A stretch of 64,000 nucleotides of DNA from an uncultured Eubacteriales bacterium. GTDB lineage: Bacteria > Bacillota > Clostridia > Christensenellales > Aristaeellaceae. Below the pieces are notes generated by a model, which made no database searches, was not told the origin of the DNA, and saw only the letters and a list, made by a program, of their open reading frames with translations. Of this stretch, positions 20,723 through 35,022 are shown in pieces. The stretch covers positions 18,172-82,171 of the forward strand of contig CADBCY010000009.1 in NCBI GenBank assembly GCA_902793325.1, written 5' to 3'. Both the position numbers and the translations under genes were made by a program. Position 1 is the stretch's first letter. Every line of letters begins with the position of its first letter.

Positions 20723-22210
20723 TTATTCTTCGGTATCGTGCATGCGCCCGTCCCGGTACATGGAGAATTTGTCCATCGGATAGTTCTTCAGGTTGTCCAG
20801 GATCTTGCGGCCGTCCGCGTGGCGCAGCAGTTCCCCTCGGGCCTTGATGACGACGGTCTCCGCCTGGTGTTTGGAGGGGCCTCCGACGCAGCCGCCGGGA
20901 CAGATCATGCCCTCGACGAAGTCCGCGTCGAGCTTCCCGTTCTTGAGGAGCATCATGGCCTTCTTGCATTCGTCGCCGCCGGCGCAGGTCATCAGGCGGA
21001 TGCCGGAGACATCCTCCCCCATCTCCTGCATGGCTTCCATGACGGCGTTGGCGACGCCGCCGCTGCCGGCGAAGCGCTTGCCAAACACGGACGCCTCCTG
21101 ATAGTCCTCCTCCACCGGCTCAATGGCGATCCCCCTGGAATCCAGCAGCGCGACGATCTCGCCGTAGGTCAGCGCGTAGTCGGCCGAGTCCACGACGAAC
21201 GTATTCAGCGTCTCGCCCTTCTTGGCGATGCAGGGGCCGACGAACACGGTCACGCAATCGGGGTCCAGCGATTTCAGGTACCGGGACACCGCCACCATGG
21301 GCGACACCGTGGAGGACTTGTTTTCTTCGTAGATCTTCGGGAAATGGTGCCGGAGCATGGAGATGAACGCGGGGCAGCAGGAGGTGGTCATGATCCTGCC
21401 CTCCTTCCGCGCCTCGATCCATTCCATCGCCTCATAGGCCGCGGTCATGTCGCCGCCCAGCCCGACCTCCACCATGTCCGCGAAGCCCGCCTTTTTGAGC
21501 GCCGCCTTCATGGACGCCATGCCGATCTCCTTGCCGAACTGGCCCTCCGTCGCCGGCGCGCACATGGCGACGACGCGCTTTCCCGCCAGTATGGCGCGGA
21601 TGACGTCCACCGCGAAGGTCTTTGAGCCGATGGCGCCGAAGGGACAGCTGTGGATGCAGTGGCCGCAGTGGATGCACTTCGATTCGTCGATCCTGCACAG
21701 GCCGGCTTCGTCATAGGAGATGGCGCCCACGGGGCAGGCCTTCTTGCAGGGGCGTTCCCGATGGATGATGGCCCCGAACGGGCAGGCCTTGGCGCACTGG
21801 CCGCAGGATTTGCACTTGTTGACGTCGATGTGCATCTTCTTGTCGCCCGGGGAGATCGCCCCGAAGCGACAGGAATTCAGGCACGCCTTGCCCAGGCAGA
21901 AGCGGCAGATATCCGATACGGAGTAGTCCTGGATCGGGCAATCGTCGCAGGCCGCCGGGATCACGGCGACCACGTTGTCCGTCGGGTTCAGCACGTCCGG
22001 GCTCTGCCCCATGGCGAGGCGTATCCTGCCCCGCACGATCTCCCGCTCCTTGTAGACGCAGCAACGGTACTCGGGCTTCGGCCCGGGGCTGACCTCGGCG
22101 ACGATCCTGTCGGTGTTCTCCTGCGTCAGCGCGTTATCCCACGCCAGGCGGCAGACCTCGCGAAGAATGAAATGCTTCAGCTCAACGATGTTCATGTCAT
22201 TCGTGATCAT
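20723..22210 (-). CDS. Monomeric [FeFe] hydrogenase, group B-like
   Basis: The protein has 495 residues. The ATG at 22210 was chosen for its GGAGG. An N-terminal Cys-rich region (CDDCP, CRFC, CLNSC) is followed by several 4Fe-4S motifs (CKSCGQCAKACP, CKKACP, CIHCGHCIHSCP, residues 133-190). The H-cluster domain has L1 TSCCPAF (276-), L2 VGPCIAKK (324-) and L3 MICPGGCVGG near 445. The architecture and the L2 form match the group B hydrogenases of fermentative Clostridia, which are thought to exchange electrons between ferredoxin and protons. No maturase genes are in the window. It follows the MBL/rubredoxin gene by 32 bases. Confidence 0.88.
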   Translation of the reverse strand: MITNDMNIVELKHFILREVCRLAWDNALTQENTDRIVAEVSPGPKPEYRCCVYKEREIVRGRIRLAMGQSPDVLNPTDNVVAVIPAACDDCPIQDYSVSDICRFCLGKACLNSCRFGAISPGDKKMHIDVNKCKSCGQCAKACPFGAIIHRERPCKKACPVGAISYDEAGLCRIDESKCIHCGHCIHSCPFGAIGSKTFAVDVIRAILAGKRVVAMCAPATEGQFGKEIGMASMKAALKKAGFADMVEVGLGGDMTAAYEAMEWIEARKEGRIMTTSCCPAFISMLRHHFPKIYEENKSSTVSPMVAVSRYLKSLDPDCVTVFVGPCIAKKGETLNTFVVDSADYALTYGEIVALLDSRGIAIEPVEEDYQEASVFGKRFAGSGGVANAVMEAMQEMGEDVSGIRLMTCAGGDECKKAMMLLKNGKLDADFVEGMICPGGCVGGPSKHQAETVVIKARGELLRHADGRKILDNLKNYPMDKFSMYRDGRMHDTEE

Positions 22211-22242
22211 TCTTCTTCCCTCCGTCATCGGATTGTGGTGGC

Positions 22243-23178
22243 TTACGCCGGGTTGAACCTGTCCTTCCCCTGCTTGCACCGCGGGCACTTCCAGTCCCCG
22301 GGCAGGTCGTCGAAGGCCACGCCGTCGTGCTCGGCGGGGTCGTAGACGTAGCCGCACACGGAGCAGATGTACTTGCCGGTGGCCTGCGCCGCGGCGACCT
22401 CCGTCGGCGGGATGCTCTCAGGCGGGTTGTCCAGGTCGACCACGGCCCTGTTCTCCAGGTTCTCGACGCCCAGCGGCGTGTGAGTGGAGAGGTACACCGT
22501 CGGATGCGCGGCGATGAACGCGCGGACCTTATCCAGCGTCGCGCGCGCCGCGGTCACGTCCTCGAACACCACGGACAGCTTGTTCGCGTACAGCGCCTCG
22601 TCGGTGTAGGTCACGTCGCCGTGGATCATGTAAAACAGCCCGCCGTCCTCGACGATCACGATGCTGTTGCCCTTGGTGTGGCCCTTCGCCGGGAGGTAGT
22701 AAATGCCGTCGGCGATCTTCTCGCTGGCCTCGAAATTGTAGTAGGGGCCGTCCTTGAAGGTCACCGCCCGCACGTTGGGCAGGGTTTTCAGCTCGTCGCT
22801 GGCGGCCTCCTCGGGGGAGGCGCAGATCACGGCGTTCGGGAACGCCTTCAAAAGTCCCGTGTGGTCGGCGTGCTTGTGGGTGACCAGGATCTTCGACACG
22901 TTCTCCGGCCCGTAGCCCAGCGCCGCCAGCGCGGGCAGGTAGTCCTGAATCCGCGCGCCCATGTAGATGGGGGTCTTGGCGTCCGGCACCTGGTTCGGCA
23001 CGCCGTCGGGCATGCCGGTGTCCACCAGGATCACCTCGCTGCCGGTGTCGATCACGTAGTTTTGCAGGCTGGAGCGGTAGCGGACGGACGGGTCGAGTCC
23101 CTCCATGCCCTCGCCGCCCATGGCGAAGGGCTGGAGCATGTAGCCGTTTTCATAGAGTCTGACCGCCTGGATCTTCAT
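22243..23178 (-). CDS. Metallo-beta-lactamase-fold hydrolase fused to rubredoxin
   Basis: The protein has 311 residues. The start at [12 protein letters not shown] fits the family; the open frame upstream does not. Residues 1-255 are a lactonase-like MBL domain with the metal motif THKHADHTG (HxHxDH), [10 protein letters not shown] and STHTPLG. Residues 268-311 are a rubredoxin: [12 protein letters not shown], then [15 protein letters not shown] with both CxxC knuckles intact. There is no flavodoxin domain, so it is not a flavorubredoxin. Adjacent and co-directional with the [FeFe] hydrogenase, it may couple a hydrolase or redox reaction to that electron system. The substrate is unknown. Confidence 0.88.
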
Positions 23179-23325
23179 GGAAATGACCTCCTCGCAACGA
23201 TTGTCGAAAGCGCATTGCGCCGCGGAACACGCACCTGTAAAAATTGTAACGTATCCTTTGCGATCTGTCAATGTCTCAGATCGGCCAAAATCGGCGCCAT
23301 GCCCCGCAAAGGCACACATGTCCGC

Positions 23326-24621
23326 TCAATAGTACACCTTCGCCGTCCCCTTGCCCCGGGACAGCAGGTCCTTCTGCAGGCGCTTCGCCACGCGCGCGAT
23401 TTCGGCGAAGTCCGGCTTCAGGGCCCCGTCGTACTTCAGGAATTCGCCCTCCACCATGGTATAGCGCACGTTTGCGCTGTTGGCGGCGTACAGGATCGCC
23501 GAAACCGGGTGGTAATACGCCATCGTGTCCGGGGTCTGCAGGTCCCAGACGACCAGGTCGGCGACGGCGTTCTCCTCCACCCTGCCGGTCCCCGCGCCGA
23601 ATACGGCATGGCCCGCCATCAGCCGCCGCCACACCTCCAGCGCCGGGTACAGCGTCGCGTCTCCGCGGTTGAACTTCTCCAGCATGGCAAACAGCCGCGC
23701 CTGCTCCAGCGGGCTCACGTTTCCCGAGCTGGCCGCGCCGTCCGTGCCAAAGCCGTATTGCAGCCGGTCCGCCAGGTCGAAGAAGCCGCCCCGCCCGGAC
23801 GCAAGCCGCATGTAGGTCTTGGGGCAGAACGCGAACCATGTGTCGGCGTTGATGCAGGCGAGATCGTCCTCCGTCACCCACAGGCCGTGCGCGACGAGCA
23901 CCGGCAGGTCAAAGCCCCCGGCGTCGTACAGGCGGCGGAAGGGCGTCCTCCCGGTGCGCCGCAGCGACTGCTCAACCTGCAATTCTGTCTCGCTGAGGTG
24001 CAGGTGGATCGGCAGCCGCATCTTCTTCGCCTCGTCGACGATCTCCCCGAGCGTATCCTCCGGGCAGGTGTAATCCGCATGCGGGCCGAAGCGCAGGCGG
24101 ATCCTCGGCGAATCGCCCTGGTGATCCCGTATGAACCGGCTGACCTGCGCAAGCCTGTCCCGGAAGTCGGGGGCCATGCCGAATACCGTCGGGGCGATGT
24201 CCATGCGGATCCCGGTATCCTTCGCCGCCCGCAGCACCTGCTCCTCTCCGAAATAGTGGTCCGCCGCCGCGGTCACGCCGTTGTTGAGCATCTCCGCGAT
24301 GCCCAGCAGCGTGCCCGTATAGATGTCCTCCTCCGTCATCCTGCTCTCATAGGGCCAGATCATCTCGTTGAACCAAGTCTCCGCCGCGACGTCCTCGGCG
24401 ATCCCCTTGAAGATGTTCATTGCGGTATGGGCGTGCAGGTTCACGAGCCCGGGGCTCACGAAATACGCCGAACAGTCGATTGTGTCCGACGGCGCCATCT
24501 CCGGCTGGGGCGTTCCCGAGTCGCAGATCCTCGCGATGCGCCCGTCCCGGATGTAGATGTCCTTGTGGAACAGGCACTCCCCCGTATGCGCGATAATCGT
24601 CGCGTTATGCAGTTGAATCAT
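23326..24621 (-). CDS. Amidohydrolase (SsnA / TrzN / MTA-SAH deaminase family)
   Basis: The cytoplasmic metal-dependent hydrolase has 431 residues. Key motifs are PGLVNLHAHTAMN (HxH), LRFGPHADYTCPEDTL, LPIHLHLSETELQVE (His and Glu), LVAHGLWVTEDDL and FGTDGAASSGN (Asp). This is the standard set for aminohydrolases acting on ring amines. GGAGG precedes the ATG. It is the last gene of the minus-strand sugar operon, 45 bases after rhaD. The substrate is uncertain, and its place in a ketose operon is unexplained. Confidence 0.88.
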   Translation of the reverse strand: MIQLHNATIIAHTGECLFHKDIYIRDGRIARICDSGTPQPEMAPSDTIDCSAYFVSPGLVNLHAHTAMNIFKGIAEDVAAETWFNEMIWPYESRMTEEDIYTGTLLGIAEMLNNGVTAAADHYFGEEQVLRAAKDTGIRMDIAPTVFGMAPDFRDRLAQVSRFIRDHQGDSPRIRLRFGPHADYTCPEDTLGEIVDEAKKMRLPIHLHLSETELQVEQSLRRTGRTPFRRLYDAGGFDLPVLVAHGLWVTEDDLACINADTWFAFCPKTYMRLASGRGGFFDLADRLQYGFGTDGAASSGNVSPLEQARLFAMLEKFNRGDATLYPALEVWRRLMAGHAVFGAGTGRVEENAVADLVVWDLQTPDTMAYYHPVSAILYAANSANVRYTMVEGEFLKYDGALKPDFAEIARVAKRLQKDLLSRGKGTAKVYY

Positions 24622-24666
24622 AGGCGATGCCTCCGTCCTGTGAAGAATGTGAGCCTCGGGAGGGAC

Positions 24667-25500
24667 TCAATCCCGGCGGGATTGCAGGAAGCGTTCCTTC
24701 AGCGGAAGGCGAAACACCTCCGCCATGTCCCGAAGGTCCTGCGCGCCGGGCGCCTGCCTTTTCGCGGGGACGCAGGACAGCACCCGGATCAGTATGGAAG
24801 CGGCCTTCTCCGCGGTTTCCACCAGCCCGAAGCAGGCATCCGGGCCCTCCCCGACGGCAAATACGCCGTGCTGCGCCCAGAGTACGATGTCGAATTCCTC
24901 TATCTTTTCCATGGTCGCCGCGGCGATTTGCGGGGTTCCGGGAACCATCCACGGCACGATCCCGATGCCGGCCGGAAAGATCATGGCGCACTCGGGCATC
25001 ATTTCCCACAGCTCGCGGGTAAAGACGACCTCGTCCAGGGGCAGTATGAACGAAAGCGCGATCAGGTTGTCCGGATGCGCGTGATAGACCATGCGCAGGC
25101 GTCCCCCGGAGCGGCGCTTGATGACCTCGTGGTTTGCGAGGTGCGCCGGCAGCTCGCTCGTCGGCCTGCCGCCGCCGCCAAAACCCCAGAGGACGCGGTA
25201 CCGGGCGCCGTCCTCCGAAACCTCGATGATGCCCAGGGATTTCGCGGGATCGCGGGCCGTGTTGCGAAAGACCTGGCCGGCGGCGGTGATCAGCAGCACG
25301 TCCCCCGCCAGGCCGGGCACGCGGACGCCGATGGGATTCCAGTCGCCGGTCCGCGAAAGATCCTCCGATACGGCGGTGATCTCCGTCGCGCCGAGACGGC
25401 AGCTCAGGTTGCCGCCATGGCATTCGTGCCAGCCCTCCCGCCGCGCATCGTCGCACATGCGAACCAGCGCGGTGAAAAACGGCGCTTCCGTAACTCTCAT
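24667..25500 (-). CDS. rhaD: Rhamnulose-1-phosphate aldolase
   Basis: The protein has 277 residues, close to the 274 of Escherichia coli RhaD. It shares that protein's diagnostic blocks: GWHECHGGNLSCRL (compare the GWDERNGGNLT block), PTSELPAHLANHEVIK, VYHAHPDNLIALSF (zinc His pair), VFTRELWEMMPEC, FPAGIGIVPWMVPGT and WAQHGVFAVG (third His). It splits L-rhamnulose 1-phosphate, or a stereochemically related ketose phosphate, into dihydroxyacetone phosphate and L-lactaldehyde. The ATG at 25500 has GAGGAG upstream. It is co-operonic with a kinase and a second aldolase. Confidence 0.9.
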   Translation of the reverse strand: MRVTEAPFFTALVRMCDDARREGWHECHGGNLSCRLGATEITAVSEDLSRTGDWNPIGVRVPGLAGDVLLITAAGQVFRNTARDPAKSLGIIEVSEDGARYRVLWGFGGGGRPTSELPAHLANHEVIKRRSGGRLRMVYHAHPDNLIALSFILPLDEVVFTRELWEMMPECAMIFPAGIGIVPWMVPGTPQIAAATMEKIEEFDIVLWAQHGVFAVGEGPDACFGLVETAEKAASILIRVLSCVPAKRQAPGAQDLRDMAEVFRLPLKERFLQSRRD

Positions 25501-25578
25501 GACAGTGCTCCTCACTCGCAGCGGATGCGCGCGTTTGGCATCGGGACCGGGAACGATCCCGCCTTTCCGCGCGGGGTT

Positions 25579-26319
25579 TTACTTCTTTTCCATGAGCTGC
25601 CGCATGAATTCGCTGAAGGGAATCGCCGGCTCCAGATCGGCGGTGGAGTCCACGCGGCAGACCGTGCCCTCCGGCGTCATGTCGATCCCGTGGAAGGCCA
25701 GCGCCTCGGTGATCTGGTCGCTGTTGATCGGGCGGAGCCTGCCCAGGCTGGCCAGCCCAAGGGCGAGGCGCGCGGAGGCTTCGGCGTTTTGCAGGCGGTA
25801 CCAGGCCTCGCGGGGGGACTTCCCCCAGGCGATCGGCCCGTGATTTGCCAGGTTTACCACGTGATACTTTTTGACATAGGGGATGATGCATTCCGCCAGT
25901 TCCCTGGACCCCGAGCAGCAGTATGGGATCACCGGGATCCTGCCGCAGATGCACACCGCCGAGAGGGTGGTGGGCAGGTCCAGCTCGATGCCCGCGCAGG
26001 CGAGGATGGAGCAGTTCAGCGGGTGGGCGTGCGCCGTGGACACGATCTCGTCGTCGGTTCTGTAGGCATTGAGGTGCATCTCGGTTTCGCTGGTCGGCTT
26101 CCAGGTGCCCTCCAGGATCGCGCTGTCGCTGATGCGCACCTTGATGAGCATCTCGTCCTTCAATTCGCCCTTGTTCACGCCGGTCGGCGTGATCCACACC
26201 TCGTCTTTGCCGCAGCGCACGGAGAGATTGCCGTCGTTCGCCGCGACAAAGCCCGCGCTGCTCATGTTTCGGCCGATCTCAAGGATCAGGTCCTTGGCCT
26301 CCCTGTCTGAAAGATACAT
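25579..26319 (-). CDS. Class II aldolase, L-fuculose-phosphate aldolase type
   Basis: The protein has 246 residues. Features of the aldolase II/adducin fold include AANDGNLSVRCG (phosphate loop), WITPTGVNKGEL, PTSETEMHLNAY (catalytic Glu), STAHAHPLNCS (zinc His pair) and VNLANHGPIAWG (third His). It resembles FucA and related sugar-phosphate aldolases rather than RhaD. Having both aldolase types in one operon suggests two diastereomeric ketose 1-phosphates are handled, or that one enzyme has a new substrate. Confidence 0.88.
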   Translation of the reverse strand: MYLSDREAKDLILEIGRNMSSAGFVAANDGNLSVRCGKDEVWITPTGVNKGELKDEMLIKVRISDSAILEGTWKPTSETEMHLNAYRTDDEIVSTAHAHPLNCSILACAGIELDLPTTLSAVCICGRIPVIPYCCSGSRELAECIIPYVKKYHVVNLANHGPIAWGKSPREAWYRLQNAEASARLALGLASLGRLRPINSDQITEALAFHGIDMTPEGTVCRVDSTADLEPAIPFSEFMRQLMEKK

Positions 26320-26367
26320 TTCGTTCCGCCCCTTTTCTTATTTTTACTTGTTTACTTGAATGCGCCG

Positions 26368-27852
26368 TTACCAGAGATTTGTGCGGATCACGCGCTCCGC
26401 AAAGACCGCATAGCGCCGGTTCCACGCTTCGACATCCTTCGGTTCATAGACGCTCTGCGGGAAGGTGTTCGCGGAAACCCGGCGCATGGACTCCTTGTCC
26501 TTCAGCTCGCCGCAGGCATAGCATTGCAGCAGCAGGTTGCCCACGCCGCTCCCCTCGTACAGCCCGGTATACACCGGATAGCCGCAGGCGTTGGCTGCGT
26601 ACTGCGCAAGCAGGCGGTTGCGGCTGCCCCCGCCCATCATGTAGATCCGGTCGATCCTGCGGTCGGCGGCCTTCAGCAGGGCGTCCAGGTAGCGCCGGTA
26701 TTCCAGCACCATGCTCCGGTAGACGATGCCGGCGATCGCGGGCACGTCGTTGCGGTCCACGTCCACGCCGAAGTCGCGCCGGATGGCGGCGGTGATCGCG
26801 CCCAGCATGTCCTCCGGGCCGTAGAAGTCCCGCCCGTTGATGTCGATGGAGAGGTCGTTCTCCCCCGCGCCCTCCGCCAGGTTGACGATCTCCTCGTAGG
26901 AATACCTGCCCCACTGGCTCTTGCACTGTTCGATGATCCACGTGCCGGTCATGTTGCGCTTGAACATGTTCTTGCCGAAGGGGGCGCTGGAATTGTTGAA
27001 GTTGTTCTCGTAGGCGATGTCGTTGATTACGGGCGCGTCCGTCTCAATGCCCATCAGCGCCCAGGTGCCGCAACTGATGAAGCCCCAGTTGCGTCCGTTG
27101 TCCGGCACCGCGGTCAGGGCGCAGACGGTGTCATGGGTACAGCTCGTGACGATGCGGACGGGCCCTTCCAGTCCCGCCGCCCTGACGATCGCGGGGTCCA
27201 CCTGGCCGATGCAGGTGCCGGGGCCGACGACCCTGGTGCACAGGCCGGCGGGAAGGCCGAAGCGCTCGAACACCTCCGCGTCCCAGGCGTCCCGGCGGAA
27301 ATCGTACAGCCGCCCGAAGGTGGGCATGGATCGCTCGCAGCAGGCCTCCGCGCCCAGCATATAGTGCATGGCGTCCGCCACGAACAACATGCCCCTGGGG
27401 TCGTCCAGCGAGGGATCGTCGTCCAGCTTCATGCTCAGCAGCATGCGCAGCGGATCGGAGGGCATGCGCTGGTTGCCGTTGCGCTCATACAGCGCCCGCT
27501 CTCCGAACGCCGCCTCGATCAGCGGCTGCGTGCGCTCGACCGTGTTGACGGTACGGTAGGAGACCGGCAGGTGGTTCAGGTTGCCGTCGCGGTTCAACAC
27601 CGAGAAATCCCCGCCCCAGGAGCACACGCTGAGGCTGTCCAGGCGTGGGCCGTACTTTTCCGCGTAAAGGGACAGCGCGTGCTGGATATCATCGTTGAAG
27701 CGGTAGAGATTGCGGTAATCCCTGCCGTGGACGCGCGTGAATTGGGTCCGGAAGCGATAGATCGGGTCCGTCCTCAGGACGCCGCCGTCCAGATAGCCGA
27801 CGATCGCGCGGCCGCTCTCGGAGCCCATGTCGATCGCAAGATGCATGCCCAT
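26368..27852 (-). CDS. rhaB: Rhamnulokinase-type FGGY carbohydrate kinase
   Basis: The protein has 494 residues. The ATG at 27852 was chosen because GGAGG lies 8 bases upstream and the family begins LAIDMGSESGRAIVG here. The RhaB-type features are CSWGGDFSVLNRDG (catalytic Asp region), TSCTHDTVCALTAVP (HDT), FISCGTWALMGIE and IYMMGGGSRNRLLAQ. It phosphorylates a ketose, probably L-rhamnulose, at O1 with ATP. L-fuculose or another 6-deoxyketose remains possible. Nothing is broken. Confidence 0.87.
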   Translation of the reverse strand: MGMHLAIDMGSESGRAIVGYLDGGVLRTDPIYRFRTQFTRVHGRDYRNLYRFNDDIQHALSLYAEKYGPRLDSLSVCSWGGDFSVLNRDGNLNHLPVSYRTVNTVERTQPLIEAAFGERALYERNGNQRMPSDPLRMLLSMKLDDDPSLDDPRGMLFVADAMHYMLGAEACCERSMPTFGRLYDFRRDAWDAEVFERFGLPAGLCTRVVGPGTCIGQVDPAIVRAAGLEGPVRIVTSCTHDTVCALTAVPDNGRNWGFISCGTWALMGIETDAPVINDIAYENNFNNSSAPFGKNMFKRNMTGTWIIEQCKSQWGRYSYEEIVNLAEGAGENDLSIDINGRDFYGPEDMLGAITAAIRRDFGVDVDRNDVPAIAGIVYRSMVLEYRRYLDALLKAADRRIDRIYMMGGGSRNRLLAQYAANACGYPVYTGLYEGSGVGNLLLQCYACGELKDKESMRRVSANTFPQSVYEPKDVEAWNRRYAVFAERVIRTNLW

Positions 27853-27897
27853 TGGATCAGCCTCCTTCACTCGGTGAAAAGGATCGTTCAAGACCGG

Positions 27898-28893
27898 TCA
27901 GACCGTGGCCCGCTCGATGAGCTCGACGTCGAGGATGAGGTCCTCCACCGTTTCCCCCTTCAGCATGCGGATGATGGAATCCGCGGCCAGCGCGCCGAAG
28001 CGGCGGTACTGCTGGCGCACCGTGGTGAGCGGCGGCGTGATGCGCCGGCTCAGGGGAATATCGTCCATGCCCATCAGCGCGATTCCTTCGGGAACGGCCA
28101 CGTGAGCCTCGTTCAGATACTGCGCGCCTCCGATCGCCAGGATGTCGGAGGTGTAGAACACCGAATCACAGTGGAGCCCGGAGCGCAGGATCCGCTCCGT
28201 AACCTGCCTGCCGCCCTCGTAGGTCACGTGTTCGACGTGGAAGATGCATCGCGGGTCGAGCGGCCTGCCGTGATCCGCCAGCGCCTTCCGGAAGCCCCGC
28301 AGGCGCTGGCGCTGTGTCTCCAGCTCGTCCTCGAAGAGCACGATCGCCGGGTTGTGCCTGCCGGCGGCCATCAGCCGCTCTCCGGCGAGGCAGCCTCCGC
28401 GGTAGTTGTCGCTTCCAATAAAGCAACTGCCCTTTTCCATGGATGCCGGCGGCGGCTTGCGGTCCACATAGATGATCGGCAGATCGCTCATCAGCGTCTT
28501 CGAGCGCTTTCCGCCCACGAAGATGATGCCCGAGAAGCGGAGATTGCCGAGCATCTCCATGAAGCGCTTTTCCGCCTCCTCGTTTTCAAAGGTGTCGCAG
28601 ATCACCGCCGTATAGCCATGGCGGAACAGCTCGCTCTCGATCTCCTGCACGATGCCCGCGAAATAATCGCTGGTGATATCGCTCACGATCACGCCGATCG
28701 CCTTCATGCGATCCTCGCGCAGGCTCTTCGCCAGCATGTTCGGCTGGTAATTGTATCGATCGATCACTTCCCGCACGCGCTGCTCCGTCTCCTTGGAGAA
28801 GCGCCCGTTTCCGTTGATGACGCGGGACACGGTGGCCACGGAGGTATTCGCCAGGCGCGCGATCTCCTTGATCGAAAGCTTCCCGTTGTTCAT
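27898..28893 (-). CDS. LacI family transcriptional repressor
   Basis: The protein has 331 residues. The start at MNNGKLSIKEI follows GGAGG. The DNA-binding domain is typical (SIKEIARLANTSVATVSRVI, hinge YQPNMLAKSLR), followed by a Peripla_BP_3 effector domain (IGVIVSDITSDYF, IIFVGGKRSK, MGMDDIPLSRRITPPLTTV). It heads the catabolic operon and probably represses the divergent transporter operon through a CG-centred operator at 29289. The inducer is likely the imported sugar or its phosphate. Confidence 0.92.
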   Translation of the reverse strand: MNNGKLSIKEIARLANTSVATVSRVINGNGRFSKETEQRVREVIDRYNYQPNMLAKSLREDRMKAIGVIVSDITSDYFAGIVQEIESELFRHGYTAVICDTFENEEAEKRFMEMLGNLRFSGIIFVGGKRSKTLMSDLPIIYVDRKPPPASMEKGSCFIGSDNYRGGCLAGERLMAAGRHNPAIVLFEDELETQRQRLRGFRKALADHGRPLDPRCIFHVEHVTYEGGRQVTERILRSGLHCDSVFYTSDILAIGGAQYLNEAHVAVPEGIALMGMDDIPLSRRITPPLTTVRQQYRRFGALAADSIIRMLKGETVEDLILDVELIERATV

Positions 28894-28942
28894 GGCGATT
28901 CCTTCCTCCGTAAGCGTGATATTGCAGGAGCATTCCATAGAT

Positions 28943-28972
28943 ACTATATCACAGCCGGAGGAAGTCCGTCAA
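28943..28972 (-). promoter_or_regulatory. Promoter of the LacI-kinase-aldolase operon
   Basis: On the minus strand TTGACG (28967-28972) and TATAGT (28943-28948) are 18 bases apart, 50 bases before the LacI ATG. The rest of the gap to the divergent promoter (28973-29244) shows no gene and no clear structure; it is GC-rich on the left and AT-rich on the right. Confidence 0.65.
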
Positions 28973-29244
28973 TCACCTGTGCGCGCGAACCCGGACGGTT
29001 TTCTCCGGGAAAGCCGCCGCCGGAAGGCGCGGGCGGGCTGCGCCACGAACGCATGCCGTCCATGGGCGCGCGGGCGCGTTTTTCGGCGTTCGCGCGGGGA
29101 TTTCTTCCGTTCGCCCTGTAACGTCAAGATTAAGTTTTGTTCGCTAACCGTTGTCTTTCCCATGGAATTTCCCGGCCTAAGCCGCGAAAAATGCCGGAAA
29201 CTGCAATATAGCAAAAATTTCTTCGCAAAAATCTAGAGATACTG

Positions 29245-29273
29245 TTGACATTGTGTCTAAGATCGGTTAAAAT
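29245..29273 (+). promoter_or_regulatory. Promoter of the ketose transporter operon
   Basis: TTGACA (29245-29250) and TAAAAT (29268-29273) have a 17-base spacer. A TATAAT at 29273-29278 is closer to consensus but lies 22 bases away, so I prefer the first pair. Confidence 0.65.
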
Positions 29274-29288
29274 ATAATCGTATTCAGA

Positions 29289-29300
29289 GTAATCGTTTAC
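29289..29300 (+). promoter_or_regulatory. Putative LacI-family operator
   Basis: GTAATCGTTTAC is an imperfect palindrome centred on CG with GTAA/TTAC ends, the usual form of LacI-family sites. It lies about 10 bases after the expected transcription start of the transporter operon, a blocking position. The repressor gene at 27898-28893 is the obvious candidate. Confidence 0.55.
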
Positions 29301-29403
29301 CCTGTTTTCTCCACGCGCCGGAGAAATGGCGCCTCACCCCGATCTGTCGGCAGAGTGGTTGACTGCTGTCGAAAGATAATTATTAAATGGAGGAGCGAAC
29401 AAC

Positions 29404-30471
29404 ATGAAGAAACTGCTTACCCTGATCCTGGTTGTTGCCATGATCGCCACCATCGCCGGCACGGCGCTTGCCGAGGGCTATCAGGTCCTGAACGGCTTCG
29501 ATCCCGCGAACTTCAAGAGCGACAAGGATCCCTCTGAGTTCAAGATGGCCGTCGTCGTGAAGGGCGTTGCCGACTGGTTCTCCCGCCTGGAGGAAGGCGT
29601 GACCGAGTTCGCTGAGAAGTATGGCGTGGACGCGCACGTTGAGTTCCCCGCCACCACCGACGCCGCCTCCCAGCTGGAGATCATCGACCAGCTCAAGACC
29701 CAGGGTTATGACGCCATCATCGTGGTGCCGAACGACTCCGCCGCCCTGGAGAACACCTTCAAGGACGCCATGGAGAAGGGCATCGTCGTCATCGGCCACG
29801 AGGCTTCCAACCTGACCAACTGCCTGTATGACACCGAGGCCTTCAACGCGCAGACGAACGCCGAAGCCAAGGCAGACGCGCTGATCGAGGCCACCGGCGG
29901 CGAGGGCAAGTACGCCATCATGGTCGGCTACACCACTGCCATCACCCACATGGACTACGCCACCCGCGAGGTTGATTACCTGAAGGAGAAGGCCCCGGGC
30001 CTGGAGCTGATCAACGACGGCGCCATCCCCACCTGCGAGTCCAAGGAATCCACCACCACCGCCTATGAGCAGGCCAAGCAGGTCCTGAAGGCCAACCCCG
30101 ACCTGAAGGGCTTTGTGTGCCACTGCTCCACCGACGCGGCGGGCGTCTCCCAGGCTGTTGAAGAGATGGGCCTCGACGGCCAGGTCATGATCATCGGCGC
30201 CGGCGTTCCCTCCGTGTACGCCGAGCAGCTGAAGGACGGCCTGATCTACTGCGTCACCACCTGGGATCCCAAGCTGTCCGGCTACGTTGCCTGCCTGACC
30301 GCCTACAAGGTGCTGACCGGCGAGCCCGTGGGCGACGGCTCCGACCTGTCTGACGGCGGCGCGGCTCCCGGCTACGAGGCTGTCAAGCTGGTCCTGGACG
30401 ACGGCAACAACTGCCTGCTCGGCAGCGCGCCCTGCGTTGCGACCGCTGAGAACGTCGACGATCTGTTCTAA
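29404..30471 (+). CDS. Sugar ABC transporter substrate-binding protein
   Basis: The protein has 355 residues with a signal peptide at 1-23 (MKKLLTLILVVAMIATIAGT, then ALA cleavage). The fold is Peripla_BP_4 (FKMAVVVKGVADWFSRLEEG, AIIVVPNDSAALENTF, VVIGHEAS). It is the first gene of a complete importer and faces the kinase/aldolase operon, so the ligand is probably a 6-deoxy or rare hexose. GGAGG lies upstream of the ATG. Confidence 0.92.
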   Translation: MKKLLTLILVVAMIATIAGTALAEGYQVLNGFDPANFKSDKDPSEFKMAVVVKGVADWFSRLEEGVTEFAEKYGVDAHVEFPATTDAASQLEIIDQLKTQGYDAIIVVPNDSAALENTFKDAMEKGIVVIGHEASNLTNCLYDTEAFNAQTNAEAKADALIEATGGEGKYAIMVGYTTAITHMDYATREVDYLKEKAPGLELINDGAIPTCESKESTTTAYEQAKQVLKANPDLKGFVCHCSTDAAGVSQAVEEMGLDGQVMIIGAGVPSVYAEQLKDGLIYCVTTWDPKLSGYVACLTAYKVLTGEPVGDGSDLSDGGAAPGYEAVKLVLDDGNNCLLGSAPCVATAENVDDLF

Positions 30472-30507
30472 CCACTGATACATCGGTTTAATACGCATTA
30501 AACCTGA

Positions 30508-30540
30508 GGCGCTGCCGGGCGGTTTACACTTGGCAGCGCC
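30508..30540 (+). other. Intercistronic hairpin after the binding-protein gene
   Basis: GGCGCTGCC and GGCAGCGCC form a perfect 9-bp stem with a 15-base loop in the 115-base gap. Only a short TT follows. It is best read as an attenuator or mRNA-stabilising stem that keeps the binding protein more abundant than the membrane parts. Confidence 0.55.
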
Positions 30541-30586
30541 TTGTCGATGCAAGGCGAACACAACGAAGGGAAGGGAGGAATAACCG

Positions 30587-32077
30587 TTGTCTGAGTACAT
30601 CTTGGACTGCAAGGGCGTATGCAAGTCCTTCGGCGGCGTGCACGCCCTGCAGAATGTCGACCTGAGAGTAAAGCGCGGCGAGGTGCACTGCCTGGCCGGC
30701 GAGAACGGCTGCGGAAAATCCACCATCATCAAGGCGATCTCCGGGTTCCAGCCGCAGGATTCCGGCACAATCGAATTCGACGGGACGGTCTATCAGCAGC
30801 TCTCGCCGTCGATCTCCATCGACCAGGGCATCCAGGTCATCTATCAGGATATGTCGGTCTTCCCGAACCTGACGGTGCAGGAAAACCTGGCCATCAACAC
30901 CGTGATCTCCAACAAGCAGAAGATCTACAATCACAGGCAGCAGCGGGAGATCGCGAAGAAGGTCATGGCGACGCTGGACCTGGACCTGGATCTGGACGAC
31001 TTGGTCGAAACGCTGCCCGTCGCGGCCAAGCAGCTGATCGCCATTGCGCGAGCGCTGTACGCCAAGGCGAAATTCCTGATCCTGGACGAGCCCACGACGG
31101 CGCTGACCCGCAAGGAGGTCGACCGCCTGTTTGAGATCATCCGCGACCTGAAGGCCAAGGGGCTCTCCATACTGTTCGTGTCCCACAAGCTGGATGAAAT
31201 GTACGAGATCTCCGACAGCATTACCATCATGCGCTCTGGCCAGGCCGTGTACACCGGTCCCATGGCGACGCTGAGCGAGGAGGATTTCACCCACTACATG
31301 ACCGGCCGCGACTTCAACGACGTGGACAACAAGCACGCCGAGGAGCGCATCCAGTACGACGCAAAGCCGGCCATCGAGCTGAAAGACCTGTCCGGCCCCG
31401 GCTTCGCGGGCGTTTCCTTCAAGGTGCAGCCCGGCGAGATCGTCGGCATCACCGGCCAGTTGGGTTCCGGCCGCTCCGAGCTGTGCAACACGCTGTTCGG
31501 CATCGAGCAGGCGACCGGCGGCACCATCACCTGCGCGGGCAAGCAGGTGACCATCTCCTCCGTGAAGGACGCGACGAAGAACGGCATCGCGCTGGTTCCC
31601 GAGGACCGACTGACCGAGGGCCTGTTCCTGCCGGTGTCCATCATGGAGAACATCACCGTCGTCAACTTCGACAAGTTCACCAAGGGTGTGACGCTGGACG
31701 CCCCGAACCAGATCGCCGAATCCGCGCAATGGGTCAAGGATATCCACGTCAAGACCGACGACCATATGCTCCCGGTGCAGACGCTCTCCGGCGGCAACCA
31801 GCAGAAGGTGGTTCTGGCGAAGTGGCTGTCCACAGACCCGAAGATCCTGATCCTCAACGGCCCCACCGTCGGCGTGGACATCGGCGCGAAGTACGACATC
31901 TACGCGCTCCTGCGCGAGCTGGCAAAGAAGGGCCTGGCGGTCCTCGTCGCCAGCGATGACCTGACCGAGGTTTCCAGGCTGTGCGACCGCACCGTGGTCA
32001 TGCGGGGCGGCATCATGACCGGGGAGATCGCCGGCAAGGACCTGACCGTCGAAAACCTGACCAAGGCGATCATGTGA
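30587..32077 (+). CDS. Sugar ABC transporter ATP-binding protein, atypical second site
   Basis: The protein has 496 residues. The start is TTG, 8 bases after GGGAGGA. NBD1 has GENGCGKSTIIKA (Walker A) and LILDEPTTAL (Walker B), but a poor signature (LPVAAKQLIAIARAL). NBD2 has TGQLGSGRSEL, a good LSGGNQQKVVLAKWL signature, and LILNGPTVGVDIGAK, where Walker B has Asn-Gly in place of Asp-Glu. Hydrolysis is therefore expected at one composite site only. It works with the two permeases that follow. Confidence 0.92.
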   Translation: MSEYILDCKGVCKSFGGVHALQNVDLRVKRGEVHCLAGENGCGKSTIIKAISGFQPQDSGTIEFDGTVYQQLSPSISIDQGIQVIYQDMSVFPNLTVQENLAINTVISNKQKIYNHRQQREIAKKVMATLDLDLDLDDLVETLPVAAKQLIAIARALYAKAKFLILDEPTTALTRKEVDRLFEIIRDLKAKGLSILFVSHKLDEMYEISDSITIMRSGQAVYTGPMATLSEEDFTHYMTGRDFNDVDNKHAEERIQYDAKPAIELKDLSGPGFAGVSFKVQPGEIVGITGQLGSGRSELCNTLFGIEQATGGTITCAGKQVTISSVKDATKNGIALVPEDRLTEGLFLPVSIMENITVVNFDKFTKGVTLDAPNQIAESAQWVKDIHVKTDDHMLPVQTLSGGNQQKVVLAKWLSTDPKILILNGPTVGVDIGAKYDIYALLRELAKKGLAVLVASDDLTEVSRLCDRTVVMRGGIMTGEIAGKDLTVENLTKAIM

Positions 32078-32090
32078 GGAGGCGAATAAG

Positions 32091-33104
32091 ATGAATAAGA
32101 AAACGAAACGGCTCCTCGGCAGAAACGAGTTTTACGTTGCCGCTATCATCATCGTCCTCGCGCTGATCATCCAGGTGATCTCCGGGCAGTTTATCGCGGT
32201 CAACAACCTGGTCGACCTGGCCCGCGCGATCATCGTCAACGCGATCTACGCGCTGTGCGGCCTGCTGGCCTTCGTATCCACCGGCGCGGATGTCTCCTTC
32301 CCGATGATCGCCGGCATGACGACCTACATCATCTTCAAGGTGGCCGAGGTGACCAGCCTTCCGGCGATCGTGCTGGTGCTCATCGCGCTGGCCATCGGCG
32401 CGCTGTGCGGCTGCATCAACGGCTTCTTCATCGTCAAGTATCACTTCAACTCCCTGATCGTCACGCTGTCCACCTCCGCCATCTGCTACGGCATCGCCTT
32501 CGGCGCGCTGAAGGGCGTGCGCATCGACGTGCCGGAAGCGTTCAAGGGCTTCTCCAAGTGGAACCTGTTCACCGTGCGGAGCAACATCACGGGCCTGGGC
32601 GCGAAGATGCACGGCGCCATACTGATCATGATACTGCTGTACGTGATCGCCTATCTGGTGCTCCGGCACACGATGGTCGGGCGCTCGATCTACGCCATCG
32701 GCGGCGACGAGATCTCCGCGCGCCGCGCCGGTATCCAGGTCGACAGGGTTCGCTTCGGCGTCTTCGTCGTCAACGGCATGATCGCCGTGATCGGCGGCCT
32801 GTGCTACGCCTGCATGTGCAAGAACTGCTCCCCCATGGAGTACTACGGCGGTGAGAACATCGTCATCGCCGCGATCGTGTTGGGCGGCGTTCGCCTGACC
32901 GGCGGCCACGGCACGCTGCTGGGCTGCCTGCTGGGCACGTTCCTGCTGTCGATGGTCTCCAACTCGCTGACGCTGATCGGCGTGTCCGTTTACTGGCAGA
33001 ACGTGTTTATCGGCCTGATCATCGTCGGTGGCGCGTCCATTTCCGCAATCCAGGCGAAGCGCTCCCTGAAGGCCAGTAAGGAGCTCGGAAAGGAGGCGGC
33101 TTGA
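32091..33104 (+). CDS. Sugar ABC transporter permease 1
   Basis: This is a 337-residue BPD_transp_2 family membrane protein. AGGAGG precedes the ATG, 13 bases after the ATPase stop. It has 8-10 helices, with FVSTGADVSFPMIAGMT near 65 and IVIAAIVLGGVRLTGGHGT near 265 (family permease loop). It probably forms a heterodimeric channel with the next gene. Confidence 0.92.
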   Translation: MNKKTKRLLGRNEFYVAAIIIVLALIIQVISGQFIAVNNLVDLARAIIVNAIYALCGLLAFVSTGADVSFPMIAGMTTYIIFKVAEVTSLPAIVLVLIALAIGALCGCINGFFIVKYHFNSLIVTLSTSAICYGIAFGALKGVRIDVPEAFKGFSKWNLFTVRSNITGLGAKMHGAILIMILLYVIAYLVLRHTMVGRSIYAIGGDEISARRAGIQVDRVRFGVFVVNGMIAVIGGLCYACMCKNCSPMEYYGGENIVIAAIVLGGVRLTGGHGTLLGCLLGTFLLSMVSNSLTLIGVSVYWQNVFIGLIIVGGASISAIQAKRSLKASKELGKEAA

Positions 33105-33105
33105 T

Positions 33106-34080
33106 ATGACGACGGTGAAAAAGCTCAAGATCAACAGTGACTTCCTAAGAATGCTGGTCATATTGGTCGTGTTCATCGTTGCCGCGACCATCACCTCCGG
33201 TTCGAACTTCTTCAGCGTGGTCAGCTTCCAGACCATGGCGAAGCAGTTGACGGAATACGGCCTGATGTCCATCGCGCTGTCCATGGCCATGATCACCGGC
33301 GGCATCGACCTGTCCACCGTGTACATCGCCAACATGTGCGGCGCCATCGCGTCCCTGACCATCAGCGCCATCGCGCCGGAAGGCCAGTTCATCGGCATAC
33401 TGTTCGCCTGCATCCTCGCCATCGCGATCGGCCTGTGCTGCGGCGCGCTGAACGGCTTCCTGGTCTCCGTGGTGGGCGTACCCCCCATGCTGGCGACGCT
33501 GGGCACGTATGAGCTGTTCTCCGGCATCACCATCGTGCTCTCCAACGGCCAGTCGATCCAGGTCATCCCGCAGTTTACCGTATTTGCGACATTGGAGGTC
33601 CTGGGCATCCCACTTCCGTTCATCGTGTTCGTGATCATGGCGGTCATATTCTCGATCCTGCTGGGCAAGACCGCCTTCGGCCGCAGGGTGCACCTGGTTG
33701 GCGTCAACCCGAAGGCCGCGCGCTTTGCGGGCATTAACAACGAAAAGACCATCATCATGGCCTATACGCTGGGCGGCTTCCTGTGCGCGGTCGCGGGCCT
33801 GATCTCGCTGTCGCGCGTGTCCTCTGTTAAGGCGGACTTCGGCTCCTCCTACGTCATGATGACGATCCTGATCGCCGTTCTGGGCGGCTGCAACCCCGCC
33901 GGCGGCTGGGGCGAGATCCCCGGCGTGGCCACGGCGGTGCTCGTGCTGCAGGTCATTTCCCAGTGGCTGACCGCCGTCCCGTGGATCAACGGCTACTATC
34001 GCCAGGCCCTGTACGGCATCCTGCTGCTCGGCTTCATGACCTACAAGTTCTACCGCGACAAGGGCACCCAGCGGCGCTGA
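33106..34080 (+). CDS. Sugar ABC transporter permease 2
   Basis: The protein has 324 residues, in the same family as the preceding permease but clearly diverged. It shows SMAMITGGIDLSTVYIANMCG and VMMTILIAVLGGCNPAGGWGE. The ATG is 1 base after the previous stop, with AGGAGG inside that gene. Two different permeases with one fused ATPase is the arrangement seen in rhamnose and autoinducer-2 importers. Confidence 0.92.
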   Translation: MTTVKKLKINSDFLRMLVILVVFIVAATITSGSNFFSVVSFQTMAKQLTEYGLMSIALSMAMITGGIDLSTVYIANMCGAIASLTISAIAPEGQFIGILFACILAIAIGLCCGALNGFLVSVVGVPPMLATLGTYELFSGITIVLSNGQSIQVIPQFTVFATLEVLGIPLPFIVFVIMAVIFSILLGKTAFGRRVHLVGVNPKAARFAGINNEKTIIMAYTLGGFLCAVAGLISLSRVSSVKADFGSSYVMMTILIAVLGGCNPAGGWGEIPGVATAVLVLQVISQWLTAVPWINGYYRQALYGILLLGFMTYKFYRDKGTQRR

Positions 34081-34152
34081 TCCGCACGGTAACCGACAAC
34101 GGGCCGCCGTGTGCGGCGGCCCCTGGACCACAACCAAGAAAGGACGATTTGC

Positions 34153-35022
34153 ATGAAGTACGGCATTTACTATTCCTATTGGGAGAAGGCCTGGCGCGCG
34201 GATTACATCCCGTACGTGAAGAAGGTCAAGGACCTGGGCTTTGACATCCTCGAGGTCGGCTGCCATCACTTCCTGGATATGGACGACGAATTCCTGACCT
34301 CCCTGAGGAAGGAAGCCGAGTCGCAGGGCATCGTCATCACCGGCGGCTACGGCCCCGACAAGGCCCACGACATCGCCAACGCGGACCCGGCCATCGTGAA
34401 GGCGGCCTTTGACAAGTACGAGGCGACCTTCAAGAAGATGAAGACCGCGGGCGTCAAGTGGCTCGGCGGCGGGCTCTACTCCTACTGGCCGGTTGATTAC
34501 AGCCTGCCGATCGACAAGCCCGGCGACCGCGCGCGCTCCATCGCCAACATCCGTACCCTGGCCGACATGGCCGCCGAGTACGACATCTCCCTCGGCATGG
34601 AGGTCCTCAACCGCTTCGAGGGCTACATCCTCAATACCTGCGAGGAGGCCGTGGACTTCGTCGATAAGGTGGGCAAGAAGAACGTCTACATCATGCTGGA
34701 CACCTTCCACATGAACATCGAGGAGGATTCCTTCGTCGAGGCCGTGAAGCTCGCGGGCGACCGGCTGGGCCACCTGCACGTGGGCGAGGCGAACCGCCAC
34801 TGCCCCTTCCCCGGCGGGCGCATCCCGTGGAAGGAGATCGGCGACGCGCTGCACGAGGTCGGCTACAACGGCAACATCGTCATGGAGCCGTTCGTCCTCG
34901 AGGGCGGCGAGGTCGGCCGCGATATCCGCGTCTGGCGCGACCTGTCCAACGGCGCGACCATAGAGAAGCTGGATCAGGACGCCGCGGACTCCGTGAAGTT
35001 CCTGCGCGGCCTGTGGGGCTGA
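34153..35022 (+). CDS. D-tagatose/D-psicose 3-epimerase family sugar epimerase
   Basis: The protein has 289 residues; MKYGIYYSYWEKAW follows AAAGGA. The TIM-barrel metal ligands of the family are all visible: Glu in LGMEVLNRFEGY, Asp in IMLDTFHMNIEED, His in LGHLHVGEANRH and Glu in NIVMEPFVLEGG. FDILEVGCHHF and RIPWKEIGDAL also match. The close pattern to known psicose 3-epimerases predicts C3 epimerisation of free ketohexoses. It closes the transporter operon, so it probably converts the imported ketose into the kinase substrate. Confidence 0.9.
   Translation: MKYGIYYSYWEKAWRADYIPYVKKVKDLGFDILEVGCHHFLDMDDEFLTSLRKEAESQGIVITGGYGPDKAHDIANADPAIVKAAFDKYEATFKKMKTAGVKWLGGGLYSYWPVDYSLPIDKPGDRARSIANIRTLADMAAEYDISLGMEVLNRFEGYILNTCEEAVDFVDKVGKKNVYIMLDTFHMNIEEDSFVEAVKLAGDRLGHLHVGEANRHCPFPGGRIPWKEIGDALHEVGYNGNIVMEPFVLEGGEVGRDIRVWRDLSNGATIEKLDQDAADSVKFLRGLWG

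Follow-up and report, generated by a model that had tools for sequence, protein, structure and literature searches.

What can a bacterium do with a rhamnulokinase-like kinase, two class II aldolases, a ketose 3-epimerase and a sugar importer encoded side by side, when no aldose isomerase stands among them? The question is raised by ten open reading frames (ORFs) at positions 23326–35022 of the window, the whole analysed stretch of 64,000 nucleotides from an uncultured Eubacteriales bacterium whose genome comprises 3.23 Mb in 67 contigs. The initial annotation had proposed that this island serves the breakdown of a ketose by a path other than the standard one for rhamnose. All ten frames were confirmed in position and strand, and profile searches back the general family labels; the same searches of the island ORFs found no aldose–ketose isomerase. 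A codon-usage scorer trained on the window served to pick out real genes. The genes form two divergent blocks separated by 465 bases; those of the left block lie 45, 63, 48 and 6 bases apart, those of the right block 115, 13, 1 and 30. Our reading, held with roughly even confidence, is that the locus is an isomerase-independent ketose utilization island, with D-allulose/D-fructose and D-sorbose/D-tagatose as the leading substrate pairs.

In the proposed pathway, an importer of the CUT2 type would bring the ketose into the cell under LacI control, and the epimerase would equilibrate it at C3, turning a 3S centre into a 3R centre. The 3S inputs could be D-fructose and D-tagatose, and also L-ribulose, D-xylulose and L-sorbose, yielding D-allulose, D-sorbose, L-xylulose, D-ribulose and L-tagatose, respectively. 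An altered kinase would then phosphorylate the 3R ketose, with C1 as the predicted position, and two class II aldolases, of (3R,4R) and (3R,4S) types, would split the ketose-1-phosphates into dihydroxyacetone phosphate (DHAP) and an aldehyde, D-glyceraldehyde in the case of a D-hexulose. The epimerase would fill the place that an aldose isomerase holds in rhamnose and fucose breakdown. The ketose-1-phosphates formed and cleaved by FucA and RhaD are 3R, with C4 being R for FucA and S for RhaD, and aldol reactions of this kind are reversible. From D-fructose (3S,4R), D-tagatose 3-epimerase forms D-allulose (3R,4R); from D-tagatose (3S,4S) it forms D-sorbose (3R,4S). Such epimerases are compatible in stereochemistry with RhaD- and FucA-type aldolases. 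Work on E. coli RhaD describes the joining of DHAP and D-glyceraldehyde to D-psicose-1-phosphate (D-allulose-1-phosphate) and D-sorbose-1-phosphate (PMC5434028, PMC9048046). We infer import, C3 epimerization, C1 phosphorylation and cleavage, and with them the substrate and products of the island, because the stereochemistry of epimerase and aldolases fits and RhaD makes these two ketose-1-phosphates.

The core of the island recurs in a metagenome-assembled genome from sheep duodenum (RGIG5678, locus L056), the sole locus given by a contig scan that detects close relatives only. There the genes for epimerase, permease 2, permease 1, ATPase and binding protein face, in this order, those for kinase, class II aldolase and RhaD. 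Identities to the window proteins are 81.8% for the epimerase (over 220 residues, the contig ending inside this gene), 92.8% and 96.7% for permeases 2 and 1, 94.0% for the ATPase, 94.1% for the binding protein, 81.2% for the kinase, 91.9% for the class II aldolase and 80.7% for RhaD. The grouping is more than chance, since eight of the ten genes stand together in a second species. The initial annotation had called for a survey of whether the set persists without an isomerase, and it does so here: L056 keeps the eight-gene core in a 17.5-kb contig stretch in which FucI found no match and RhaA a 14-residue chance match only (the rest of that genome was not searched). The amidohydrolase and LacI genes of the island found no match in the same stretch at E values up to 1.

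The right-block gene at 34111–35022 (plus strand) encodes a D-allulose (psicose) 3-epimerase family protein, with a score of 438 bits for NF051856 (cut-off 300) and a probable start, by alignment, at Met15 (34153). Its alignment with D-psicose 3-epimerases of known structure spans the full length, and it conserves E164, D197, H223 and E259, which we take to be the E/D/H/E metal ligands. Profile score and ligand pattern place it in the D-allulose 3-epimerase family, and C3 epimerization of free ketoses is its predicted activity. At E ≤ 1e-85, D-psicose 3-epimerases occur in 33 of 391 genomes of the class, the host included.

The importer genes upstream of it, all on the plus strand, encode a sugar-binding protein (29404–30471; Peripla_BP_4, PF13407, 170 bits), an ATPase with two ABC domains (30587–32077; PF00005 in two stretches) and two BPD_transp_2 permeases (32091–33104 and 33106–34080; PF02653, 92 and 113 bits), which together define a CUT2-type ABC importer. 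Its closest relative elsewhere, at locus L102 of genome G371 (binding protein 46–51%, ATPase 58%, permeases 55 and 49% identity), lies beside a D-allulose 3-epimerase; the locus also encodes a PfkB kinase, for which fructokinase is the nearest model (195 bits, cut-off 450), and a 6-phospho-3-hexuloisomerase that scores above cut-off. This setting is the best hint that the island importer may carry a ketohexose. Relatives of the binding protein at 44% identity or less have mixed neighbours that indicate no single sugar.

The FGGY sugar kinase (26368–27891, minus strand; probable start slightly inside the listed one) belongs to a clade related to rhamnulokinase and scores 253 bits for TIGR02627, against a cut-off of 528. 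In a tree of 38 kinases it groups with those of L056, L157, L159 and L160 (support 1.0), and this clade is sister to L057–L060 plus L156 (0.93; joint group 1.0); RhaA lies nearby in L057–L060. The other 33 kinases are BLAST matches above 120 bits in chosen loci rather than a designed sample, with RhaA nearby in 4, FucI in 5 and the remainder RhaB/FucK-type by similarity only. The window kinase keeps D254, which is presumably the catalytic Asp. Five published specificity positions, in GlpK numbering Arg83, Glu84, Tyr135, Asp245 and Phe270 (PMC3245297), were mapped via the GlpK of the host genome itself. Among the 33 others these positions hold G (33), V (32 of 33), F, I or L (33), D (33) and L, M or I (33), with N after the third in 32 of 33; the window kinase has G, G, S, D and L, with D after the third. 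Across its clade, V is changed to G, M or S, F/I/L to S or N, and the adjacent N to D, such that two of the five published positions and the adjacent Asn differ. In place of the nearby motif YRDxR, which 28 of the 33 kinases share (3 have YRDxQ), the window kinase has YRTVN, that of L056 YRSMN and that of L157 YREAR. As the signatures of RhaB and FucK are described as very alike (PMC3245297), the departure of the window kinase from both is notable. By tree and alignment, it is a member of a clade sister to RhaA-linked kinases, whose specificity residues it has lost.

Among the aldolases, the RhaD-type (rhamnulose-1-phosphate aldolase-type) protein (24667–25515, minus strand) passes one of two RhaD models, with 282 bits for NF002963 (cut-off 170) and 267 for TIGR02624 (cut-off 401). 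It keeps E121, H145, H147 and H216, which we take to match the base and zinc-ligand positions of the E. coli enzyme. For the latter, Glu117 is on record (PMC5434028). The second, divergent class II aldolase (25579–26319, minus strand) scores 75 bits for the fucA model TIGR01086, against a cut-off of 400, and keeps E78, H97, H99 and H160, that is, the metal histidines and catalytic Glu. Where it has Ser120, all 15 aligned relatives from the subfamily have Glu, L160 has Ala as judged by eye, and FucA has Tyr, which we take to be residue 113. Neither the kinase nor this aldolase passes any NCBIfam model listed for it. The labels 'RhaB-type' and 'FucA-type' given initially overstate the relationship. 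The subfamily is common, present in 84 of 391 class genomes at E ≤ 1e-30 (host included), and in 29 neighbourhoods of its nearest relatives, read to about 1.5 kb on each side, MtnA-like genes are adjacent in 7, PduP-like genes in 11 and a RhaB-like kinase in 1, by eye. The PduP-like neighbours suggest a microcompartment. By these comparisons, the 'FucA' of the island is a divergent relative of aldolases that often stand beside MtnA-like or microcompartment-type genes.

Is the isomerase missing from the cell as well as from the island? It is not: the search of the remaining genome that the initial annotation had proposed found both enzymes, and the notion of a genome without an isomerase was discarded, while its absence from the island itself stands. 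RhaA lies alone on contig C27 of the host genome (G000), with 615 bits for NF002203 (cut-off 572) and 574 for TIGR01748 (cut-off 585), with neighbours that were named by eye, a DegV-like gene on one side and a gene for a membrane protein on the other. FucI is on C7 (NF008220, 1019 bits; cut-off 775), next to an SDR gene and a divergent AraC-like gene. A separate standard RhaB on C18 scores 496 bits for TIGR02627, under the cut-off as is the island kinase. None of the three adjoins the island, and none has its usual partners alongside. Of the six class II aldolase domains in the genome, the island accounts for two, and only its RhaD passes NF002963; a domain on C6 shares 39% identity, over 346 residues, with the aldolase that L060 encodes next to RhaA and a kinase. 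As RhaA, FucI, RhaB and this C6 domain all lie on other contigs, the cell has components of conventional rhamnose and fucose breakdown outside the island, and the presence of standard RhaB, RhaA and FucI elsewhere leaves the island free for another sugar. Pentulose genes are also present, namely XylB-type kinases (one above the TIGR01312 cut-off) and AraD.

The other aldolase domains and C18 offer observations of their own. The C6 domain shares one 646-aa frame with a TrmB tRNA methyltransferase (L024:8521–10461), which may reflect a genuine gene fusion or merely an adjacent frame with no stop codon in between, and C54 encodes tandem class II aldolase domains in one protein of 448 aa (L023:6067–7413), the second copy of which, by alignment, is without some metal-binding histidines. 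On C18, a row of three genes encodes a purine nucleoside phosphorylase (PNP), an amidohydrolase of the deaminase group that stays below every cut-off, and MtnA, with no aldolase nearby (L193:7137–10349), perhaps a deaminase form of 5'-deoxynucleoside salvage whose last step is encoded elsewhere.

Control of the island would fall to a LacI-family repressor (27898–28938, minus strand; PF00356 and PF13377 above cut-off; likely start near 28893). A sigma-70-type promoter, TTGACA-17-TAAAAT, precedes the importer genes at 29245–29273 on the plus strand and matches 11 of 12 consensus bases; promoter-like sites in the region number 3, against 0.4 in shuffles. Just downstream, at 29289–29300, lies a palindrome picked by eye as candidate LacI operator, GTAATCGTTTAC, whose central CG is typical of such operators. 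It is the only exact genome match to the pattern GTAANCGNTTAC, which was chosen after the site had been read. As no exact copy exists elsewhere in the genome, none precedes rhaA, fucI or rhaB, whose upstream regions (190, 117 and 300 bases) hold best operator-like sites with 3, 3 and 2 mismatches, respectively. An isomerase co-regulated by the same LacI protein had been named initially as a finding that would refute the proposal; with 3 mismatches at best before rhaA and fucI, no close operator copy points to one. The weight of the candidate operator is its place beside the promoter.

Taken together, the conserved core, the intact epimerase and RhaD residues, the changed kinase residues and the ketohexose-like setting of L102 make a ketose route plausible. 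Its separateness from standard rhamnose use is supported by the conserved core, the altered kinase residues and an operator-like site with no exact copy elsewhere in the genome. The initial picture holds in part only: RhaA, FucI and a standard RhaB are encoded elsewhere, so that the isomerase is missing from the island alone. The 6-deoxy sugar also considered in the initial annotation is possible, yet favoured by no result. A more specific version, in which this is natural isomerase-free catabolism with the C3 epimerase as a stereochemical funnel, a kinase re-specialized from rhamnulokinase and paired (3R,4R)/(3R,4S) aldolases, we regard as doubtful; it would be the counterpart, in natural breakdown, of the engineered RhaD route to D-allulose and D-sorbose.

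Several observations weigh against the ketose island. Its full core is found in only two species. Among 39 other epimerase neighbourhoods (all 40 listed places minus the window's own, some ending at contig ends), in each of which the epimerase was located by tblastn where ORF picking alone missed L110 and L131, none has a RhaD-type gene nearby; a RhaB-like kinase is found in 1 (L135) and a XylB-type kinase in 4 (L100, L108, L116 and L129). The best named model for the binding protein is the rhamnose-binding RhaS, far below cut-off (106 versus 342 bits), and the FucA-like protein, lacking the subfamily Glu, may be no aldolase of the FucA kind. Genomic RhaA and FucI could supply the island in trans. 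The single operator match is no more than chance, as a reversed control pattern gives two matches per strand, and within the window, at one mismatch or fewer, 1 was found where 0.63 were expected; neither the LacI gene nor the operator site is on the L056 stretch examined. Finally, the amidohydrolase of the 5'-methylthioadenosine (MTA)/S-adenosylhomocysteine (SAH)/5'-deoxyadenosine deaminase group (23326–24621, minus strand; PF01979 135 bits, listed NCBIfam models all below cut-off) has no place in the proposed scheme. Judged by spacing, it shares an operon with its neighbours; having no match on the L056 stretch, it falls outside the conserved set and was dropped as a member of the pathway core.

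The alternatives give the same genes other tasks. If a distant RhaA or FucI made the ketose, the island could be the importer, kinase and aldolase of a scattered L-rhamnose or L-fucose pathway, with the epimerase widening its range. The partnerless RhaA, FucI and RhaB on other contigs, the RhaS-like binding protein and the standing of the island RhaD as sole NF002963 match would suit this arrangement; we consider it unlikely, given a separate standard RhaB, an island kinase without the residues common to RhaB/FucK-type kinases, the lack of a close operator copy before rhaA, fucI or rhaB, and the C6 domain, which suggests that another rhamnulose-1-phosphate aldolase may exist. The stereochemical logic of the ketohexose scheme would hold equally for imported pentuloses, L-ribulose/L-xylulose or D-xylulose/D-ribulose, epimerized at C3 and cleaved as 1-phosphates to DHAP and glycolaldehyde, and E. 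coli rhamnulokinase is described as accepting L-xylulose (PMC3245297). XylB-type kinases and AraD already in the genome, together with the hexulose-like setting of the nearest importer relative, make a pentulose route quite improbable.

Least probable, and in our view very unlikely, is that the FucA-like aldolase and amidohydrolase dispose of 5'-deoxynucleosides in a DHAP shunt, completing the aldolase-less cluster on C18. That cluster has PNP, MtnA and an amidohydrolase of the same group as the island's, and the 7 MtnA-like neighbours among the 29 aldolase neighbourhoods point the same way. Such a shunt gives no role to the kinase, RhaD, importer or epimerase, and its amidohydrolase is absent from the L056 stretch; six aligned MtnA-linked aldolases keep the Glu that the clade of the island aldolase lacks, and the sole IF-2B family match of the genome is on C18, not in the island.

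How widely the proposed ketose island might occur can be gauged from its kinase. At E ≤ 1e-90 it matches in 4 of 200 family genomes (its own and others at 81%, 53% and 35% identity), and a widespread Clostridial cassette was rejected on these counts. The same threshold gives 4 of 391 class genomes (its own, others at 37–39%), E ≤ 1e-60 gives 44 of 200 order genomes (best other 39%), and the 10 listed genomes of the same genus have no match. In genome G699, the aldolase (65%) and a same-clade kinase (36%) are encoded on opposite strands with about 5 kb between them, and the piece read had no epimerase or RhaD match. Genome G641 has a 53% kinase with a different ABC importer, and at L157, where the kinase is 53% identical, an ABC importer is present and the contig piece gave no match to the other island enzymes.

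Comparison with known systems would place the island among variants of ketose-1-phosphate catabolism. The E. coli D-allose pathway via D-allulose-6-phosphate uses a CUT2 importer and AlsE, which takes the 6-phosphate once a sugar kinase has acted, and has no aldolase; importer type and a rare-hexose 3-epimerase are shared, whereas the island epimerase is of the free-sugar family. Relative to other D-allulose/D-tagatose 3-epimerases (NF051856), that protein is alike in score, metal ligands and alignment and differs in its neighbours, a RhaD-type gene being absent from all 39 other loci examined. The RhaABD (described in PMC3870299) and FucIKA pathways share with the island an FGGY kinase followed by a class II aldolase that yields DHAP and an aldehyde, with an importer nearby; the island differs in having no linked aldose isomerase, a C3 epimerase, changed kinase residues and two different aldolases per operon. 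DrdA and Ald2 of 5-deoxyribose salvage and the DHAP shunt (PMC6079011, PMC10986504) are class II aldolases acting on a ketose-1-phosphate, with the (3R,4R) configuration inferred for the salvage aldolase DrdA (PMC6079011). As in those systems, relatives of the island FucA-like gene adjoin MtnA-like genes; in contrast, the island has neither MtnA nor MtnK, and Ser replaces the subfamily Glu. An engineered RhaD route to D-allulose and D-sorbose, as reported (PMC9048046), shares the RhaD link between DHAP plus D-glyceraldehyde and the two 1-phosphates; it is synthesis in engineered cells, whereas the island would run natural breakdown with a kinase and an epimerase.

We found no description of this gene set among the titles and abstract openings listed by searches of open-licence PubMed Central papers, which does not show its absence from print. 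Overall, the island is a plausible variant of ketose-1-phosphate catabolism, with the full core in two species so far. If the proposal is true, bacteria like the host would break down rare ketoses, including the low-calorie sweeteners D-allulose and D-tagatose, via ketose-1-phosphates. Rare-sugar synthesis would also gain a naturally paired kinase and aldolase, and the replacement of an isomerase by an epimerase would be a rule searchable in other genomes.

Some loci and genes seen along the way deserve brief mention. Besides its aldolase and kinase, the G699 locus (L160:5314–12882) encodes, as judged by eye, another FGGY kinase, a pair of VOC-like proteins and regulators of ROK-, DeoR- and AraC-like type. 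In genome G054, a single gene run at L135:9524–19330 comprises an epimerase-like gene, an ABC importer, a RhaB-like kinase, a weak FucA-like gene and, judged by eye, several shell genes of a microcompartment, and the same genome contains five matches to the D-psicose 3-epimerase model, one of them below cut-off. Directly after the island, window positions 20723–23319 encode two further proteins, of which one resembles iron-only hydrogenases and the other combines a metallo-beta-lactamase fold with a rubredoxin domain at its end.

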